A DNA stretch of 64,000 nucleotides, from the NCBI RefSeq assembly GCF_000010325.1, contig NC_009662.1, positions 702,501 through 766,500 on the forward strand. Reading direction: 5' to 3'. The translations under genes were made by a program, and so were the position numbers. The stretch comes from Nitratiruptor sp. SB155-2 (GTDB lineage: Bacteria; Campylobacterota; Campylobacteria; Campylobacterales; Nitratiruptoraceae). The stretch's first letter is position 1. Every line of letters begins with the position of its first letter. Positions 15,868-29,746 of the stretch are shown here, piece after piece. The notes beneath the pieces are model-generated. The model was not told the origin of the DNA and searched no databases. It saw nothing but the letters and a program-made list of their open reading frames with translations.

Positions 15868-16802
15868 TTTTTGATGCAGAAACGATTGAGAGAATTCAAG
15901 CAGCCATAGATGCAAAAGATATCGATTTTTTTGAACAAAAACTGCACCCAAGAGAAAGAGAAAGAAGCAGAATGGCCATTCGCACTGCACTCATGGTGTC
16001 GGCTCATAGAGCAAAGCATCTCAACAAACTAGACGAAATCAAAGCGGATACCGTTATACTCAACCTTGAAGATGGTGTGGCTCCACAATATAAAGAAGTG
16101 GCACGGTATGCCTTGGCCTATTTTTTGCAGCATGTGCCCGAGAATGTTCCTTTGTTGGTTGTACGAACAAATCCTTTGCAAGAAGGGGGAGAAGAGGAGA
16201 TCGAGTTTCTCAATCCCTTTTTTCCTGATGCATTTCGGATTCCAAAAGTACGCCAATTGAGCGATGTGAAAAATGCGCTTTGGCTGGCAGACGATGCAAT
16301 CGATATTCATCTTTCCATTGAAACGAAAGAGGCATTTGCACTGTTGACGCAGTTACGTGTGGAAGAGAGAGTGCAAGCCTACTATCTCGGAATTTTGGAT
16401 CTTTTGGCAGATCTAAACATCGAACAAAGTGTTTTGAAACTGAATAATCCGACAATCGATTATATTCTTGCGAGATTTTTATTTGAATCAAAAATGGCAG
16501 AAGTGGTCCCAGTGAGTTTCGTCTATCAAGAGTATCAAAACGTAGAAGAGTTTGAAGCATGGTGTAGACATGAAAAGGCGATGGGATTTGACGCGAAAGC
16601 CTGTATCTCTCCAAAACAGGTGGAAATTGCGAATAGGATTTTCGCTTCTTTTGATGTGGAGCGAGCCCGGTATATCAAAAAGCGTTTCGAAGAGATGGCA
16701 AAACAGGGTATAACCGGTTTTCGTGATGAGAAGTACGGTTTTATCGATGAGCCTATCTATAAAGATGCCTTGAATCTTTTAAAGCGAACGCAAAAAACCT
16801 AA
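15864..16802 (+). CDS. CitE-like HpcH/HpaI family lyase
   Basis: 312 aa, TIM-barrel C-C lyase of the citrate lyase beta/malyl-CoA lyase superfamily. Near the N-terminus SAHRAKHLNKLDEIKADTVILNLEDGV carries the metal-linked acidic residue after the second strand; VVRTNPL gives the substrate Arg and LSIETKEAF the catalytic Glu. No citD/citF genes are nearby, so it is not part of a citrate lyase complex here. Possible roles are cleavage of a CoA thioester or of a free 2-hydroxy acid. Its end overlaps the convergent hyfI-like gene by 24 bases. Confidence 0.75.
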   Translation: MIFDAETIERIQAAIDAKDIDFFEQKLHPRERERSRMAIRTALMVSAHRAKHLNKLDEIKADTVILNLEDGVAPQYKEVARYALAYFLQHVPENVPLLVVRTNPLQEGGEEEIEFLNPFFPDAFRIPKVRQLSDVKNALWLADDAIDIHLSIETKEAFALLTQLRVEERVQAYYLGILDLLADLNIEQSVLKLNNPTIDYILARFLFESKMAEVVPVSFVYQEYQNVEEFEAWCRHEKAMGFDAKACISPKQVEIANRIFASFDVERARYIKKRFEEMAKQGITGFRDEKYGFIDEPIYKDALNLLKRTQKT

Positions 16803-17282
16803 GAATCCTCTCACAATTTCATCTGGAGTTGGAGGGCACCCCGGAATATGATATGCAACGGGCAGATGTTCTTTGACGGGTCCTTTGATAGCGAAGCTAT
16901 CTTTAAAAAGAGTACCCTGTGTGCAGTCACCAAGAGTAATCACCCATTTGGGTGAGGGGAGCTGTTCATAGGCATCGAGCAGATGTGGCAACATGTTGAA
17001 GGTTACAACCCCGCTTACTAGCAAAATGTCTGCATGTCTCGGACTCGCAACAAAACGGATACCAAGACGTTCAAGATCATAATAGGGATTGGACAGGGCA
17101 TTGCACTCTGCTTCGCATGCATTGCAGCTGCCGCTATCAACCATGCGAATGGCAAGAGAGCCGGAGAATTTTTTGCCAATTTCACTTTTGAGTGATTTTT
17201 TTATTGTTTCCAGTTCTTCATCAGCCCAACTGTTTTGTGTCTGTATCCCTTTTCGAAAACGCTGTACCCAAAAATCTATCAT
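16779..17282 (-). CDS. Complex-I/hydrogenase-4-like small subunit (HyfI/NuoB type)
   Basis: 167 aa. Cys53, Cys56 (GSCNACEAEC), Cys120 (LGDCTQG) and Cys149 (IPGCPPTPDEI) are the four ligands of the proximal 4Fe-4S cluster in NuoB and group 4 hydrogenase small subunits. The cluster site is therefore intact. It is the last gene of the six-gene operon and overlaps the large-subunit gene as ATGA. Taken with a large subunit without nickel ligands, it would pass electrons to or from a non-hydrogen partner. Confidence 0.85.
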   Translation of the reverse strand: MIDFWVQRFRKGIQTQNSWADEELETIKKSLKSEIGKKFSGSLAIRMVDSGSCNACEAECNALSNPYYDLERLGIRFVASPRHADILLVSGVVTFNMLPHLLDAYEQLPSPKWVITLGDCTQGTLFKDSFAIKGPVKEHLPVAYHIPGCPPTPDEIVRGFLGFLRSL

Positions 17283-18643
17283 AAATCGCTCCCTGCATAA
17301 CTTAAATCACAACTTTTGTTGATAAGTGGAAAATCGGCGATAATGTTTTTTGGCATCATCAAGTGGAGTGCCTGCCAATTGATGAAACTTGGATCCCTTG
17401 CGAAAAACCGATCAATTTTTTGATCTTTGATTTTAAGATAGAGCATCACTTCTCCCAGTGAACTTTCCGTGAATGCAAAATATTCACCATCTTCGAATGC
17501 ATTCAAGACAACTTCATCCTCTTGAAAATCGAGTAGGTTTCGTATGATTTGTATACTATTCTTCACTTCCTGTAACCTCACTTTAAAACGTGCCGCCACA
17601 TCACCACTTTCTTGAGTTTGGATAGAAAAGCCGTGTTCTTTGTAAAATGGGACTTCTCTTCTATCTATATGGATGCCGCTTGCCCGTGCCACAACGCCGA
17701 GGGTAGAGTATTTTAAAGCTTTTTTTTGTGAGAGTTTTCCAGTGGTATCGAGTCTGTCCCATAAAGATGGAATCTCGATAATCCATTTTTCAAAAAAGTC
17801 CATTTTCTTTTCTAAATCGTTCAAAAATGAGTGTAAAGCATTTTGATCAAATTTTCTTGCCACTCCTCTAATGGCACCAAAACCGAATCGATGGTTTGTC
17901 AAAGTTTTGAGCACTCTTCTCGTATCTTCAGCCAACATTGAAGAGTAGGCTAGAGCCGCACCGAAGCCCGCATCGTTTGGAATAAATCCGAGATCAACCA
18001 AATGGTGGGCGATTCGTTCCAGTTCTAAAAGAATCGATCCATACTTTTGGATGTTTTCATTTTCTCCTTGCTTGGAAGCTTGCCGTAAAAGATCGAGATA
18101 GGCTAGTTGATAAGCGATACTTTCGTTTCCACTGATTCTCTCTACGATATGCCATGCATCTTTAGGATCTTTTCTTTCCACTATTTTTTCAATGCCGCGA
18201 TATTTATAAAAATGGCGAACTTCAAGATGGAGTATCGATTCTCCCTCTTGGGAAAAATGAAAATGGCCAGGTTCTATGATGCCGGCATGGATGGGACCTA
18301 CGCCGACTTGAAAGATGCCATCCCCTTCTATAACTTCGTAATGATAAGGTTTGAAAGGAACTGGGTCGATATGTTTGTGTGTAAATTCTTTTCGCATAGG
18401 ATGGATGTTGGGAAATCTTTCATGATGAATGAGAGGCCTGTTGTCGAAGGTGTTAAGGATTTTAATACCAAAATCATCATGCATCTTTCGTTCGAACCAA
18501 ACTGCGGCCGGATAGGCTTGAGCAATGCTTTCGATTTCAGGATTGTCCTTGTCGATAGGAGTTTTTTCAATTTTTGAATCAAAAACATCAATGATTTCGA
18601 AATGATCCTGAAGTTCTTGGGCAAATCTAGCAATAAAACGCAT
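17279..18643 (-). CDS. Hydrogenase-like large subunit lacking Ni ligands (HyfG/NuoCD type)
   Basis: 454 aa: an N-terminal NuoC-like part (FERKMHDDFGI near 50) fused to a NuoD/hydrogenase large-subunit part (RGIEK at 149-153, LLELERIAHHLVDLG). In true [NiFe] hydrogenases a CxxC pair follows near RGIEK and a DPCxxC closes the protein. Here the places read ERISGNES (168-175) and DPSFIN (417-422), and the only cysteine is at 445. The site cannot bind a NiFe centre. This matches the described energy-converting-hydrogenase-related (Ehr) class. The real electron donor or acceptor is unknown. Confidence 0.85.
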   Translation of the reverse strand: MRFIARFAQELQDHFEIIDVFDSKIEKTPIDKDNPEIESIAQAYPAAVWFERKMHDDFGIKILNTFDNRPLIHHERFPNIHPMRKEFTHKHIDPVPFKPYHYEVIEGDGIFQVGVGPIHAGIIEPGHFHFSQEGESILHLEVRHFYKYRGIEKIVERKDPKDAWHIVERISGNESIAYQLAYLDLLRQASKQGENENIQKYGSILLELERIAHHLVDLGFIPNDAGFGAALAYSSMLAEDTRRVLKTLTNHRFGFGAIRGVARKFDQNALHSFLNDLEKKMDFFEKWIIEIPSLWDRLDTTGKLSQKKALKYSTLGVVARASGIHIDRREVPFYKEHGFSIQTQESGDVAARFKVRLQEVKNSIQIIRNLLDFQEDEVVLNAFEDGEYFAFTESSLGEVMLYLKIKDQKIDRFFARDPSFINWQALHLMMPKNIIADFPLINKSCDLSYAGSDL

Positions 18644-18652
18644 CCAATCCCT

Positions 18653-20056
18653 TTACAATATAGTTTGTATAACTTTGAAGTTGGCTAAAAGAATCACCAC
18701 GGCAATGGCAAAAAGAAATAGGGCCGATATATCCGATGTATAGACCGATTTCACTTCTTCGTTTCCGTTATATTTCATCTGTTGATAGATATCGATGAAT
18801 TTATAAAATATGATTGCAAGTAAAAAGAGCATGAAAGTGATAGCTGTAAACATCAACAGAAGATGGTGGCTCTTTTTCGCCATTTCCACCATTGCCGAAA
18901 AGCCAAAAATTTCGCTAAAAAATAGGGGACTTGGGGGAAGGGCGATAATTGCCAACATAAAAAGAGCCACTAAAAGAGCAAAAACTCTACCCTTGACTCC
19001 TTTAAATCCTTTTAGTGCCCCCGCAATGTGGTATTTCCCTTGTGTTTCCAAAACTCCGGTGGAAATAAAAAGTGCCGGTTTCAACAGAGCATGCGCACCA
19101 AAATGAAGAAGTGCCGCGAAATATCCGCCACTTACCCAAAAAATTGCAATCAAAACCATATGTTCAATCCCGCTGAGGCTAAAAAGTCTCATAAAATCTT
19201 TGACTCTATAAATCAAAAAAGCAACGATGAAAAGCGTCAAAAGTGCATAAAAATAAGTAAAACCGACTAGATGAGATTCATTGATAGATTTTGCCAGCAA
19301 ACTGAATCGGAAAAAACCTGTCATGATAGCACTTTCCAAAATCCCGCTAAAAAGGGCTGCGACAGGATAGTGTGAAGCCCGTTCTATATTGGCAAGCCAA
19401 AGATTCATGGGGAAAAAGCCCATTTTAATAAAACTCCCCACTGCTATAAAAGCAAAGCCTATTTCAAAAAGGTACGGTGCATTCATTGTGTGTATAGCAC
19501 TTTGTAATTTTGTAAAAAGCATAGCCTCTTCGCCAAGTACAGGCTTGGCTGCTGCGTAAATGAGTATGATGCCAAAGAGGATCAGTGAAATAGCGATCGT
19601 ACCGACGATCATGTAGTTCCAAGCCTCTTTCGAGGCAAATTGTGTCTGATTTGTTTTAATCATATAGACGCTACTGAGTGTGGCAAGCTCCAAACCCACC
19701 CAAAAAAGTCCCATGCTGTTTGCAGTAATACTTAGGATTACACCGATCCAAAAAGTGGCGAAAAACCTATAGAAACGTTTATACTCTTGAGCATCGATAG
19801 CCACATGCTTTTGAAGACTCTCAAGTGCCAGTGTTACACCAATTCCCACAATGGAGCTCAAAATCAAGATATATTTCGCAAGGGCATCAATATGGATGAG
19901 TCCATTCCAATAGAACGTTTGTGGTTGAAAAAGCAGTATGAATGTAGGGATCAGGATCAATGCACTGACAAGTGGAAGAACTTTTTTCGTTTTTTTCGTA
20001 TCGAAAAAACTAAAAAGTATCATCAGTACTGGTGGTAAAAATAGCAGTTCAAACAT
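18653..20056 (-). CDS. Hydrogenase-4/complex-I-like antiporter subunit (HyfF/NuoN type)
   Basis: 467 aa from ATG at 20056, which has GAGGT 8 bases upstream; the frame is open 13 codons further, inside hyfE. About 13-14 membrane helices of the Mrp-antiporter/NuoLMN family; charged helix residues include the Lys in AALLHFGAHALLKPALF. These subunits move ions across the membrane. It overlaps the end of the HyfE-like gene by 8 bases. Confidence 0.85.
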   Translation of the reverse strand: MFELLFLPPVLMILFSFFDTKKTKKVLPLVSALILIPTFILLFQPQTFYWNGLIHIDALAKYILILSSIVGIGVTLALESLQKHVAIDAQEYKRFYRFFATFWIGVILSITANSMGLFWVGLELATLSSVYMIKTNQTQFASKEAWNYMIVGTIAISLILFGIILIYAAAKPVLGEEAMLFTKLQSAIHTMNAPYLFEIGFAFIAVGSFIKMGFFPMNLWLANIERASHYPVAALFSGILESAIMTGFFRFSLLAKSINESHLVGFTYFYALLTLFIVAFLIYRVKDFMRLFSLSGIEHMVLIAIFWVSGGYFAALLHFGAHALLKPALFISTGVLETQGKYHIAGALKGFKGVKGRVFALLVALFMLAIIALPPSPLFFSEIFGFSAMVEMAKKSHHLLLMFTAITFMLFLLAIIFYKFIDIYQQMKYNGNEEVKSVYTSDISALFLFAIAVVILLANFKVIQTIL

Positions 20057-20636
20057 GTCGTACCTCTTTGGTAAGCAGTAGGTTGATAATGACAACAGCC
20101 ATCAAAAGATCAAAAAAGATACCAAGTTCAATCAACATAGGCATCCCCTGTGTTGCACTCATGGCCAAAAGAAAAAGAGCATTTTCAAGGATTAAAAATC
20201 CGATTATTTTTGGGAAAATCGCTTTATGCTCTATCATCAATAACAGTGCCAAAAAGAGTGAAGCAATGGAAAGAGAGATGTAGTTTTTGTTGAATGAGTG
20301 CAATACGGGATCGACAAGGTAGAAAGTAAAAACCAGTATAGCCGGAATGAGCAAAATGGAGTATTGGATCTTGATGGATGGCTGGATGTCCCTTTGGGTA
20401 TCAAATTTTTTGGAAAAATATTTCAAAATGTAGGGGATGAAAAATCCTTTTAATGCAATAGTTATCGAACCAGAGACAATCATAGCGGTATCTGCAATGT
20501 TTGAGCCTATAATGATAGCGGCAGCGCCTAAGAAAATAGAGTTGAGTGCATACCATACAAAAAGTCTATAGAGTCTCGTGGTCAAAATAGCGGTGATGAG
20601 TGTCGAGAGAAAGAGTCCTATGAAAAAATTGCCCAT
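20049..20636 (-). CDS. HyfE/NuoK-like membrane subunit
   Basis: 195 aa, six or so membrane helices; the second half resembles NuoK (conserved acidic residue in the membrane: LMIEHKAIFPKIIGFLILENALFLL). HyfE is the hydrogenase-4 counterpart of NuoK with an added N-terminal part. It lies one base after the HyfC-like gene. The presence of HyfE and HyfF separates this operon from formate hydrogenlyase-1 (hyc), which lacks them. Confidence 0.82.
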   Translation of the reverse strand: MGNFFIGLFLSTLITAILTTRLYRLFVWYALNSIFLGAAAIIIGSNIADTAMIVSGSITIALKGFFIPYILKYFSKKFDTQRDIQPSIKIQYSILLIPAILVFTFYLVDPVLHSFNKNYISLSIASLFLALLLMIEHKAIFPKIIGFLILENALFLLAMSATQGMPMLIELGIFFDLLMAVVIINLLLTKEVRHV

Positions 20637-20637
20637 T

Positions 20638-21558
20638 CTAAGCTCCTAAAATGTAATAACTAATCAGTGATAAAAATGCAAAAATAATGGCGATACCTAA
20701 AAGATTTGGTACTTTAAAAAGTCTTAGTTTGGCAGTATTGACTTCAATGAACGCAACGGCAACACTCACGAATGCGATTTTGATCAAAAAGAGTCCCAGT
20801 GCAAATAAAAAGGGCAGATTCGCACCGAAAGGGAGAAAAAAACTGACAAATAGTGTTGCAAATATCATAAACTTCAAACTTGATGCACTTTCGATGAGTG
20901 CCAGATAGAATCCCGAAATATCCAGGATCATCGCTTCATGGACCATGGTCAGTTCCAGATGGGTTTCAGGGTTGTCCACAGGAATGCGGCCATTTTCTGC
21001 CAACAACAGGATAAAAAATGCGATAGCTGCGAAGGTAAAGCTCGCTAGATGTTTGATGGGGAAGTGATTGTTGAGATTAAGGGCCGCTTTTGCCACACCC
21101 AGATCTTTTGCTATAAGCGATAGGCTGAAAATGACGAGTACCATGGCTGGTTCCACCAAAGCGGAAATAAACGCTTCCCTGCTACTTCCAATACCTCCGA
21201 AACTGCTGGCACTATCGAGACCTAAAAGCATGAGAAAAAAAGTGGAAAGGGTTATGAGCCCGGTGATAGTAAAAGCGTCTACGAATCCAACATAGTAAGA
21301 GTTTGAAGAAGGGACAGGAAGAAAAAAAAGAACAAGGACGAGCGGTGCTAATACCATATAAGGTGCAATAGATGTTATGGAACTTGCTTCTTTGCTAATA
21401 ATCACCTCTTTTGCTATAAGTTTCGAAAAATCTTTATAGCCTTGCAAGAGGGATACCGGTTTTTTATAGAGTAGCCACATTTTTACTGCTTTCATAAAAG
21501 TTAAAAACAGAGGGGCTGTCACGATGAGTGTTGCTACAAAGATGAGATATTGGATCAC
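20638..21558 (-). CDS. HyfC/NuoH-like membrane subunit
   Basis: 306 aa, eight membrane helices, NuoH family. LLAENGRIPVDNPETHLELTMVHEAMILDISG is the conserved loop at the interface with the hydrophilic arm, holding the acidic residues linked to quinone or ion coupling. It starts with GTG at 21558, preceded by AGGAG, and overlaps the HyfB-like stop by 4 bases. NuoH-type subunits join the Fe-S/large subunits to the pumping arm, so the membrane anchor of the complex is complete. Confidence 0.88.
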   Translation of the reverse strand: MIQYLIFVATLIVTAPLFLTFMKAVKMWLLYKKPVSLLQGYKDFSKLIAKEVIISKEASSITSIAPYMVLAPLVLVLFFLPVPSSNSYYVGFVDAFTITGLITLSTFFLMLLGLDSASSFGGIGSSREAFISALVEPAMVLVIFSLSLIAKDLGVAKAALNLNNHFPIKHLASFTFAAIAFFILLLAENGRIPVDNPETHLELTMVHEAMILDISGFYLALIESASSLKFMIFATLFVSFFLPFGANLPFLFALGLFLIKIAFVSVAVAFIEVNTAKLRLFKVPNLLGIAIIFAFLSLISYYILGA

Positions 21559-23435
21559 TGCTTGTCTCCTAGAACCAAAATTTTAATACTGACAAGTAAA
21601 ATGAAGAGTTCTACAAGAAACGTTGACCAGTTAAATTGATGGGCAACTATTCGATATCCAAAAAGGACAGAGAGCACGAGGTTGAATATGATGGCGCCAT
21701 AACGAACCTGTTCAAAATGTGCCAATCGATAGAGGTAGTAGCTTATGATATTGAGCACCTTTTTTGTTCCGTCATAAAGCGTAGTTTCAAAGAGCGGTTT
21801 GATATGAACATCATAGAGTGCCGTCGTGAATTTCGTAGTGTGGCCTGCGATGGTTGTTTTGTGAAAATGGACTTGTGGTTTGTAGAGCCATGCAAAGAAT
21901 CGGCGAATGGGACCTGCAAAACCCGTAGCTGAATATTGGGTTTTTGCATTGGTATTGTATCCGCATGACCAGGTATGAGAGATTCGTTTTTTTATGCCAA
22001 CTTTTTTTACACCGATAACGAATAGCACTGTTATGAGAAGAAGTGCCACAAGTAAAATGTGAGGTGATACGACCCCTCCGTTATCGGCAATGGAGTGTAT
22101 GTTCCAAAAATTGGGAACTATTCTTTGTGCTACATTACTCCACCCAAACGCAGTGATGGCATCGTTGAAAAGATGAATATAAAAAGGCGCGAAAAGCATT
22201 AAAGATATTGTAACGAGGCCCATAAGGATCATGCCCAAACGCATAAGAGTATTGACTTCTTTGGCATGTTTTGCATTTGTGCTTCTATGAAGACCCAAAA
22301 AGGTGATACCGAAAGCTTTGACGAAGCAGGCTATGGCAAGTCCACCTGTAAGGGCCAAAGCAAAAATGGCAAAAGGAATAGAAATTTTAAGCGAAATATC
22401 GTGGATTGAACTCGAACCAAGAAGAGATTGAAAAATCATCCATTCACTCAAAAATCCATTTGTCGGGGGAAGAGCCGAGATAGATATGGCTGCAAGCAAA
22501 AAACTAAAAGCTGTAATGGGCATCTTTTTGATAAGGCCTCCATATTTTTCGATATTTTTCGTACCTGTTTGATGCAAAACGGATCCAGCCGACATAAATA
22601 GAAGCGATTTAAAGCTCATGTGATTGAAAATATGATAAATAGCTGCGATAAAAGCAAATGCTGAGAGTAGTTTTAATTGCAACGTATCGAAGATCATTCC
22701 CATACCGATGCCGATGAGAATGATCCCTATGTTTTCAATAGAGTGATTGGCTAATAACGCTTTTATATCGTGTTCAGCCAGTGCGTAGAGTACCCCAATT
22801 ACACTAGAGAGGGCGCCTAATATTAGGATAGTGACTCCCCATTCCAAACTCCAAGGATAGAGAATTTCCAGTATCATGCGTAAAAATCCGTATAAAGCGA
22901 TTTTGAGCATTACGCCACTCATCATCGCACTCACGGCACTCGGGGCTGCAGGATGGGCATAGGGAAGCCATACATGCAAGGGCACAACTCCAGCTTTACT
23001 CAAAAACCCAAAGATAAGCATGAAAAACAGAAGTGTAGGGTAAGCAAACTGTTTTGCTATAGGCTGTAATTGATCAAAAGATAGTGAAACATCACCGTTA
23101 CTCACAATGAGAAAGAATAGAAGTATAAAAACAAATCCAAAATGTGTCATAAAAAAGTAAAATCTTGCTGCAGTTGTTGTTTTTTCATCTTTTGCATCTG
23201 TTAAGATAAGTTGCCAGCTTGTAAGACTCATTATTTCCCAAAAAAAGAGAAAAAGCAAAGGGGTATTGGCGATAACGACACCCACCATGGAGAGTATGAA
23301 TGCGAAATAGTGCAAGAGGTAGTGTCTTTTTTGTTCAATGTGGCTAAGATATCCAAAAGAGTAGAAAATATTTGGAACTATTCCTAAAAAAAGAAAAAGT
23401 AGAAAAAGAATGGAAAGTGTATCGAAACTAAACAT
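21555..23435 (-). CDS. HyfB/NuoL-like antiporter subunit
   Basis: 626 aa, about 16 membrane helices of the NuoL/Mrp family. PLHVWLPYAHPAAPSAVSAMMSGV near 175 is the conserved helix pair with the coupling residues, and HIFNHMSFKSLLFMSAG follows. The C-terminus extends beyond the core as in HyfB, including WSCGYNTN. First gene of the operon; GGAG lies 7 bases before the ATG. With the HyfF subunit it gives two antiporter-like modules, one fewer than respiratory complex I. Confidence 0.87.
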   Translation of the reverse strand: MFSFDTLSILFLLFLFLGIVPNIFYSFGYLSHIEQKRHYLLHYFAFILSMVGVVIANTPLLFLFFWEIMSLTSWQLILTDAKDEKTTTAARFYFFMTHFGFVFILLFFLIVSNGDVSLSFDQLQPIAKQFAYPTLLFFMLIFGFLSKAGVVPLHVWLPYAHPAAPSAVSAMMSGVMLKIALYGFLRMILEILYPWSLEWGVTILILGALSSVIGVLYALAEHDIKALLANHSIENIGIILIGIGMGMIFDTLQLKLLSAFAFIAAIYHIFNHMSFKSLLFMSAGSVLHQTGTKNIEKYGGLIKKMPITAFSFLLAAISISALPPTNGFLSEWMIFQSLLGSSSIHDISLKISIPFAIFALALTGGLAIACFVKAFGITFLGLHRSTNAKHAKEVNTLMRLGMILMGLVTISLMLFAPFYIHLFNDAITAFGWSNVAQRIVPNFWNIHSIADNGGVVSPHILLVALLLITVLFVIGVKKVGIKKRISHTWSCGYNTNAKTQYSATGFAGPIRRFFAWLYKPQVHFHKTTIAGHTTKFTTALYDVHIKPLFETTLYDGTKKVLNIISYYLYRLAHFEQVRYGAIIFNLVLSVLFGYRIVAHQFNWSTFLVELFILLVSIKILVLGDKQ

Positions 23436-28662: not shown

Positions 28663-28691
28663 ATTATAATATGCTACTTAATAATTGTCAA
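28663..28691 (-). promoter_or_regulatory. Consensus promoter of the Gln-fMet tRNA unit
   Basis: On the minus strand TTGACA, a 17-base spacer and TATAAT precede tRNA-Gln by 13 bases: a perfect consensus promoter. The inferred left end of the IS481-like element is only 5 bases upstream of the -35 box, so insertion spared the core promoter but replaced its upstream sequence. Confidence 0.75.
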
Positions 28692-29746
28692 GTTATTGTA
28701 TAAGTCCAATACATATGGCACTCATAATGATTTTCAGGGAGGAATTGTACCGGAGATTTGAGATTAAGTGAATGGTGTGGTATTTTGGTATTGTAATCGA
28801 TAAGCCATTTTGCTAATTTTTTATTGAATTCTTGTAAGTCTGTAAAGAGTACATCTTCATAGTATTGAATAAACTGTTCTTGGATGGTTCTGTTAAATCT
28901 CTCATTGTGTGCATTCATTTTAGGACTTTTAGGATATGTCCAATAATGTGTGAGACCTTTTTGTTCAAGCAGAGCGTCAAACTCTTTTTTGAACTCACTG
29001 CCATTATCAGAAAGAATTGCGAGTTTACGTTTATGTTTGATAGATGTTATTCCATCGATGAGAGCTTCCAAGGCGTATGCAGTATGTTTTGCTCTTTTGG
29101 ATGGAATTGCCACTGCGAATGCAATACGTGTGAGTGGGTCTATCATGGTAAGGATATATCGTTTTATACCGTTTGAGACTATTTGGATGGTATCTACTGC
29201 CCAGAGTTCAAATGGTTTAGTTTTAAGGTTTTTGGGTTTGCGACTTTTTTGAACTCTCTTTTTTGGTTGAACTTTTCCTTTTGTATCGATGCGATAGGGA
29301 ACGAGTCTCATTGTATCTGGTGCTTTTGCGATAATTCTTCCTATTGTTGATTCTGAAGGAGTTTTCACTCCTTTTGCTTCACAAAAGGGTTTCAGTAGAT
29401 GGTAGAGTTTTGCTTTACCGATGTTGGGATATTTTTCTCTTAATCGTTTTATCTCTTTTATAACTTCTAGTGGTACTTTTGACTCTCTTACTTTTTTTGG
29501 TTTACGTGATTTTGGGTTTAAGGCTTTGATATCTCCATTTGCATCATTGAAACTCTTTTTCCAGCGATAAAGCGTTCTTCTGCTTACTCCAAAAGCCTCT
29601 ATTGTAGCTTCCAATCCATATTTTTGCCAAAACTCCAGTATCTTTTTTCTTCTTTTTGCCTCTTCACTTATCATGAGGCTATTGTAATAGATTTGCTTTA
29701 ATCTTTTATACCCTTTGAGCCCTGGAAATGTGTATCTGATTTGCAC
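28688..29746 (-). CDS. IS481-like DDE transposase
   Basis: 352 aa. N-terminal helix-turn-helix (YGLEATIEAFGVSRRTLYRWKKSF near 40-65), a second HTH-like domain, and an rve integrase core: Asp in LWAVDTIQ, Asp in LSDNGSEF, Glu in NAHNERFNRTIQEQ. The frame is complete. If the element ends at 28697, the last two codons and the stop come from host DNA; the stop TGA is inside the tRNA -35 box TTGACA. Confidence 0.88.
   Translation of the reverse strand: MQIRYTFPGLKGYKRLKQIYYNSLMISEEAKRRKKILEFWQKYGLEATIEAFGVSRRTLYRWKKSFNDANGDIKALNPKSRKPKKVRESKVPLEVIKEIKRLREKYPNIGKAKLYHLLKPFCEAKGVKTPSESTIGRIIAKAPDTMRLVPYRIDTKGKVQPKKRVQKSRKPKNLKTKPFELWAVDTIQIVSNGIKRYILTMIDPLTRIAFAVAIPSKRAKHTAYALEALIDGITSIKHKRKLAILSDNGSEFKKEFDALLEQKGLTHYWTYPKSPKMNAHNERFNRTIQEQFIQYYEDVLFTDLQEFNKKLAKWLIDYNTKIPHHSLNLKSPVQFLPENHYECHMYWTYTIT

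Follow-up and report, generated by a model that had tools for sequence, protein, structure and literature searches.

Six hyf genes of Nitratiruptor sp. SB155-2 as a predicted Campylobacterota clade of a hydrogenase-related complex lacking the nickel ligands

The DNA analyzed here, which we call the window, is a stretch of 64,000 nucleotides from the genome of Nitratiruptor sp. SB155-2 (one 1,877,931-bp contig), and our subject is the operon hyfB-C-E-F-G-I on its minus strand, at 23435..16779. A preliminary description of this DNA had proposed a six-gene operon of hydrogenase-4 type whose large subunit has lost the nickel site, and had placed it among the energy-converting-hydrogenase-related (Ehr) complexes. 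The six open reading frames (ORFs) are intact, and assignment by Pfam and NCBIfam gave the expected family for each of the six Hyf proteins, which bears out the gene order B-C-E-F-G-I. The features are as follows, with protein lengths in amino acids (aa).

21555..23435, minus strand: hyfB, antiporter-like membrane subunit, 626 aa, apparently without the first two helices of canonical HyfB/NuoL
20638..21558, minus strand: hyfC, NuoH-like membrane anchor, 306 aa (PF00146, E=2.7e-31)
20049..20636, minus strand: hyfE, small membrane subunit, 195 aa (NF008556, hydrogenase 4 membrane subunit, E=1.1e-13)
18653..20056, minus strand: hyfF, second antiporter-like subunit, 467 aa from the ATG (PF00361 and a HyfF-type NCBIfam)
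17279..18643, minus strand: hyfG, large NuoD/HycE-like subunit, 454 aa, without Ni/Fe ligands (alignment with 7z0s_E, motif table)
18122..18133, minus strand: Ser171-Glu174 codons of hyfG, where HycE has its first NiFe cysteine pair (Cys241/Cys244)
17291..17302, minus strand: Ser448-Gly451 codons of hyfG, where HycE has its second NiFe cysteine pair (Cys531/Cys534)
16779..17282, minus strand: hyfI, small subunit, 167 aa, Cys53/56/120/149, one predicted proximal [4Fe-4S] cluster (PF01058, E=1.3e-25)

In HyfG, a short NuoC-like part is fused to the NuoD/HycE-like part. The mechanical ORF of hyfF reaches upstream to a TTG at 20095; its start is most likely the ATG at 20056, as judged from the homologue in a relative (L047), which has 467 aa. 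No gene for an electron-input subunit lies within the operon, and inspection of the ORFs and Pfam matches of the window found neither a HyfA/HyfH-like ferredoxin gene nor a hyp gene adjoining it, in agreement with the preliminary description.

The large subunit and its former metal site

Comparison of HyfG with E. coli HycE (7z0s_E, E=4.7e-43), and in a MAFFT alignment, puts Ser171, Glu174, Ser448 and Gly451 at the positions of HycE Cys241, Cys244, Cys531 and Cys534, so that all four Ni/Fe-binding cysteines are gone. The preliminary description was right about this loss and about the first pair, Ser171/Glu174, but it had placed the second pair at Ser419/Asn422, 29 residues off; these residues belong to 'RDPSFINW', which pairs with 'RAATYANW' of HycE and holds no metal ligand, and it is the C-terminal DLSYAGSDL that contains Ser448 and Gly451. 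The sole cysteine of HyfG is Cys445, as had been noted. The last residue, Leu454, aligns with HycE Arg537 and the remaining HycE chain has no counterpart; HyfG stops where mature HycE is cleaved, and the C-terminal extension cut at maturation is absent, an argument against a hydrogenase that is not decisive alone. With regard to the residues whose roles are described for HycE (PMC9474812), the canopy Arg478 is replaced by Leu396 in HyfG, with Leu or Ile in 19/19 rows of the window clade, and the canopy Asp529 is kept as Asp446, a pattern that is reversed in the other Cys-less rows (Arg in 11/11, Asn in 10/11). The active-site loop glutamate, Glu124 (HycE Glu193), is kept in every hydrogenase row and every Ehr row, and His214 and Glu359 of HyfG are kept too.

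Mean conservation over 17 diverse Ehr rows is 0.81 at the 53 motif positions of the D domain and 0.52 at its other 289 positions (Mann-Whitney p=5.5e-13); the first value is biased upward by the choice of the 53 positions as known motif loops. Many of the pocket motif residues are invariant in the Ehr rows despite the loss of the metal that they formerly enclosed. Judging from these alignments, the former NiFe site appears to be a metal-free, highly conserved pocket. A Foldseek search with the AlphaFold2 (AF2) model of HyfG confirmed the fold only, with 7z0s_E as the best match. The ratio of nonsynonymous to synonymous substitution rates (dN/dS) against the L047 copy, from the same genus and 88-92% identical, is 0.04-0.11 in all six genes, and the Cys-less motifs are identical across all window-clade rows aligned; because of these two observations, the missing cysteines are neither a product of chance nor a sequence error.

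The small subunit HyfI keeps the hydrogenase-type CxxC..C..C arrangement, with Cys53, 56, 120 and 149 just as first described, and these four Fe-S cysteines are conserved in all HyfI rows compared; the solved chains nearest to HyfI are MbhJ (6cfw_J) and HycG (7z0s_G). Residue mapping indicates that the pump residues are kept in HyfB (Glu67, Lys147, Lys276, Glu331) and HyfF (Glu136, Lys224, Glu395), as are the E-channel residues of HyfC mapped to NuoH (Glu136, Asp195, Glu198, Glu202). Since both the Fe-S ligands of HyfI and the pump and E-channel residues of HyfB, HyfF and HyfC are retained, coupling of some electron transfer to ion movement is plausible.

Relatives of the operon and its published readings

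The window-type gene was found in 29 of 397 Campylobacterota genomes, 28 times at full length and once as a contig-end fragment. One genome scan gave 23 further loci at 58-67% identity, 22 of them binned as Campylobacterota and one as Thiotrichaceae, together with one weak match of 68 residues only in an Acidobacteria contig. The Thiotrichaceae (Gammaproteobacteria) case, L009, is a window-type Ehr on a short contig and reflects either a transfer or a binning error. In about 20 relatives with a long enough contig the order of the six genes is the same and the neighbors are unrelated. Plasmids of Rhodococcus, Rhizobium, Bradyrhizobium, Paraburkholderia and a methanotroph carry the six genes as well, at ~33% identity, arranged as I-B-C-E-F-G in Rhodococcus.

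In a tree of 49 large subunits, 30/30 Cys-less rows form one clade (100/99), apart from Nuo and from 17 four-Cys hydrogenases, and the window clade lies inside it with support 100/100. The large subunit was thus not found nested among catalytic group 4 hydrogenases with a recent error at the cysteine codons, an outcome that the preliminary description had named as one that would speak against its assignment. Constraining the four-Cys hydrogenases to one clade is not rejected (approximately unbiased test, p=0.38), and we therefore make no claim of an origin of Ehr within group 4a; the Cys-less clade may be sister to group 4a or branch elsewhere. The assignment to Ehr is supported by this grouping with other Cys-less complexes away from catalytic hydrogenases, by homology to group 4 hydrogenases without the NiFe CxxC motifs, and by the presence of antiporter-like hyfB and hyfF with HyfC- and HyfE-like subunits; the family name is applied on the strength of these shared features, published Ehr reference sequences not being in the tree. 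We conclude that the six genes represent a Campylobacterota clade of the six-gene Ehr complex and not a hydrogenase. The six-gene Ehr is itself a known kind of complex, with examples in Sulfobacillus (PMC4378227) and comammox Nitrospira (PMC5596200, PMC10284858), of which the Campylobacterota clade is a distinct variant.

One close likeness is to the plasmid operons (L057-L063), which have the six genes B-C-E-F-G-I, a CxxC..C..C small subunit, no Ni/Fe cysteines, and the pocket motifs GPxHAGxIEPGHF and NKSxxxxYxG in common with the window. From these and other Ehrs the window clade differs by its ~33% identity, by a HyfB without the first two helices, by ~30-100 fewer residues before the D domain, and in the canopy, where it has Leu/Ile and Asp446 while the others keep Arg and have Asn. 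Group 4a hydrogenases and formate hydrogenlyases (FHL; E. coli HycE, HyfG) are alike in fold, with 7z0s_E the best solved match, in the types of membrane-arm subunits and in the loop Glu; unlike them, the window complex is without the four Cys, the tail, the canopy Arg and the HycB/HycF subunits. With complex I (Nuo) it has homologous subunits and the pump and E-channel residues in common, but it lacks the quinone His/Tyr pair, its small subunit has CxxC and not tandem CC, and the operon has no NuoA/E/F/G/I/J.

The preliminary description overlooked that this operon lineage had already been published as a putative hydrogenase-4/FHL-2 and as an H2-evolving group 4 enzyme. In the portions of the two papers drawn on here, the vent-species operon hyfBCEFGI was named putative hydrogenase-4 and, together with a homologue of the formate dehydrogenase Fdh-H, FHL-2, in a 2014 comparison that included Nitratiruptor sp. 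SB155-2 (PMC3958643), and the hyc operon GAmH_0723-0718 of Nautilia profundicola was listed as H2-evolving group 4 (PMC2628731). It is the same operon as here, and the loss of the ligands is not mentioned in those portions. Our locus L072 is very probably the copy of N. profundicola: the two group 4 loci with four Cys in genome G038, at 564 and 973 kb, are taken here as the ech and coo operons, and interpolating between their positions puts gene 720 near 672 kb, where the Ehr large subunit of G038, at 674 kb, would match. The L072 large subunit likewise lacks all four Cys.

That the operon nevertheless encodes an H2-evolving group 4 hydrogenase, or FHL-2 working with an unlinked Fdh-H homologue, as these papers claim, we regard as very improbable. 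The gene order is that of Hyf, and an Fdh-H-like protein is encoded in Nitratiruptor SB155-2 at 1568394-1570433 and in 26/29 Ehr carriers. However, no Ni/Fe ligand is left, so that the four Cys ligands in L1 and L2 that define a group 4 [NiFe] hydrogenase are absent, the canopy Arg is Leu396, there is no cleavable tail, and HycB/HycF-type Fe-S subunits are found neither in nor beside the operon, the rest of the genome not having been searched for them. The Fdh-H-like gene is unlinked, ~850 kb from the operon; at E<=1e-150 it is missing from the carriers G060 (a single contig), G330 and G104, and it is present in three Nitratiruptor genomes that are Ehr-negative (G013, G278 and G328). Because of this unlinked Fdh-H, its mismatch with the presence of Ehr and the Cys-less L072, neither published reading fits, and both are contradicted by the sequences, which changes how H2 and formate metabolism would be modeled in vent Campylobacterota. 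The only other nickel-hydrogenase matches in the Nitratiruptor SB155-2 genome are at 982.9-987.0 kb. A 758-aa Fdh candidate at 1457 kb was rejected; it lies beside a 4Fe-4S/DmsC-anchor protein and a transporter-like gene, away from Ehr.

What the complex may do

In general terms, we favor an ion-coupled oxidoreductase acting between a soluble low-potential carrier and a quinone-type substrate, a reading to which we would give a little less than an even chance. Electrons would pass between ferredoxin or flavodoxin docked on HyfI and a small molecule in the former NiFe site, with ions moving through HyfC/E/F/B, and the likeliest direction would be that the ion-motive force pushes electrons of menaquinol uphill to ferredoxin, feeding the reductive tricarboxylic acid (rTCA) cycle; this exact reaction we put forward only tentatively. 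ATP-citrate lyase is present in 28/29 Ehr carriers compared to 91/368 other Campylobacterota genomes (Fisher p=4e-15), and within one family (f10) ATP-citrate lyase is found in 6/22 genomes, which include all four that have an Ehr of any kind, two of the window type and two of another type (p=0.002). This association suggests a task for Ehr in rTCA autotrophs, where ferredoxin needs to be reduced at a potential well below that of menaquinol. For Nitrospira, a complex I with doubled NuoM (2M complex I) has been proposed to carry electrons from quinol to ferredoxin (PMC6606698), and the tandem HyfB found in four of our loci is comparable to this doubled NuoM. The association with ATP-citrate lyase, the low ferredoxin potential and the Nitrospira proposal together are why we rank ion-driven quinol-to-ferredoxin transfer first. 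It is possible, though we hold it with no great confidence, that we are looking at a ferredoxin-reducing complex of the rTCA cycle with a single Fe-S cluster and a metal-free pocket, in which one pump module is two helices shorter and, in some species, a duplicated HyfB adds to the number of pumps. For the supply of ferredoxin in rTCA autotrophs on quinone-level donors, this self-contained six-gene operon is a concrete candidate.

Several observations weigh against quinol-to-ferredoxin transfer. Chief among them is the absence from the pocket of the His and Tyr of the complex I quinone site: HyfG has Ile123 at the His column and Gly172 at the Tyr column, and the own NuoD of Nitratiruptor SB155-2, whose separate complex I is encoded at ~281-297 kb, has both. 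The Tyr of complex I NuoD has a role in quinone binding. Moreover, the AF2 model of HyfG has a mean pLDDT of 68.7, with the pocket loops 97-149 and 420-454 below 50, too low to judge the shape of the cavity; the operon and its surroundings encode no donor subunit; the link to the rTCA cycle is correlational and confounded by lineage, with 91 ATP-citrate lyase genomes having no such complex; and distant Ehrs occur in Rhizobium, Rhodococcus and Burkholderiales, many of them heterotrophs. By its motifs, the HyfG pocket is not a hydrogenase site, nor is it the quinone site of complex I, and as such it bears on the evolutionary change between the two.

Another reading is coupling to formate dehydrogenase (FDH) or another dehydrogenase, a soluble enzyme that would pass electrons to HyfI, with reduction of quinone and forward ion pumping. 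Riflemargulisbacteria and Saganbacteria have been proposed to have FDH-Ehr complexes (PMC6349859), Ehr subunits of Geobacter sulfurreducens were more abundant with formate than in hydrogen-containing conditions (PMC7894505), and most carriers have the Fdh-H-like gene; yet that gene is not tied to Ehr, no linked dehydrogenase was recognized beside the Nitratiruptor operon, and the relatives have no neighbor in common, so that we consider this unlikely. We find it marginally less likely still that the pocket reduces or oxidizes a sulfur compound (sulfane sulfur or polysulfide) like archaeal MBS, a non-hydrogenase group 4 relative: MbsL (6u8y_L) is among both the sequence and the fold matches of HyfG and many carriers are named Sulfurimonas or Sulfurovum, but MBS is distant from HyfG (E=2.5e-7) and the wider Ehr family occurs in bacteria not known for such sulfur metabolism. 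Intact ion-channel residues without an electron-input subunit could also mean that there is no net redox task, and that the complex uses a gradient, for example as an antiporter or as a CO2-hydration module like cyanobacterial NDH-1MS; conservation of the four HyfI cysteines argues for a redox function, and we rate this reading lower again. A decaying relic or a sequencing artefact, which loss of the metal site might by itself suggest, has practically no probability left, being refuted by the low dN/dS, the absence of stops and a pocket more conserved than the remaining protein, and by ~29 genomes carrying the gene with the same motifs in all aligned rows.

Peculiarities of the clade and mobility of the locus

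The NCBIfam match of HyfB begins at profile position 76, and nearly all rows with the 5' end present start with MFxFDTLS, or a close variant, at the same column, ahead of which other Ehrs and hydrogenases have ~75 or more residues. The open frame of hyfB has 638 codons, allowing an extension of at most ~12. HyfB Glu67 corresponds to NuoL Glu144 and lies on the third helix predicted by the AF2 model (pLDDT 58.7), which was used solely for this placement. NuoL Glu144 is on helix 5, and HyfB would therefore be without two N-terminal helices, a kind of loss also known from metazoan ND2. The NuoC-like part is shortened as well, with 115 residues before the GPxH motif in HyfG compared to 142-219 in other Ehrs. 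The tandem hyfB pair is present in L010, L013, L019 and L023, the copies being 74-76% identical mutually and the pump residues intact in both. An extra gene of 103-129 aa lies between hyfF and hyfG at seven loci (L007, L010, L012, L013, L020, L023, L042) and is DUF167/YggU in both copies tested (L010, L042).

The operon locus looks like an exchange site. Three other Nitratiruptor genomes (L107, L110, L111) have other genes at the site beside the CitE-like gene, including an EAL/GGDEF protein, and G013, which like G278 is an Ehr-negative Nitratiruptor genome, additionally has a TonB-dependent receptor and an acetyltransferase there; G399 has no Ehr at this site, a genome-wide search of G399 not having been made; and in G031 and G374 the operon stands between other flanks. 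These differing contents and flanks agree with the 2014 remark, in the part of that paper used here, that the neighborhoods are unrelated and the operon was transferred (PMC3958643). The CitE-like gene and the cytochrome c beside the operon were dropped as candidate partners, there being no conserved neighbors outside G000/G029.

In L042 (G330:C27:82000-101500), a window-type B-C-E-F-DUF167-G is followed by a complete second six-gene Ehr, whose large subunit is 37% identical, and then by the hyfI of the first operon, so that two Ehr operons are interleaved. Contig 28 of the same genome (L085) carries a third, very diverged Cys-less large subunit with the motif NAGTSA. In the window, hyfI and the HpcH/HpaI (CitE-like) gene converge and share 24 bp at their 3' ends (16779-16802), and an integrase/transposase-like ORF at 28688-29746, judged by eye, adjoins a sigma-70-like gene.

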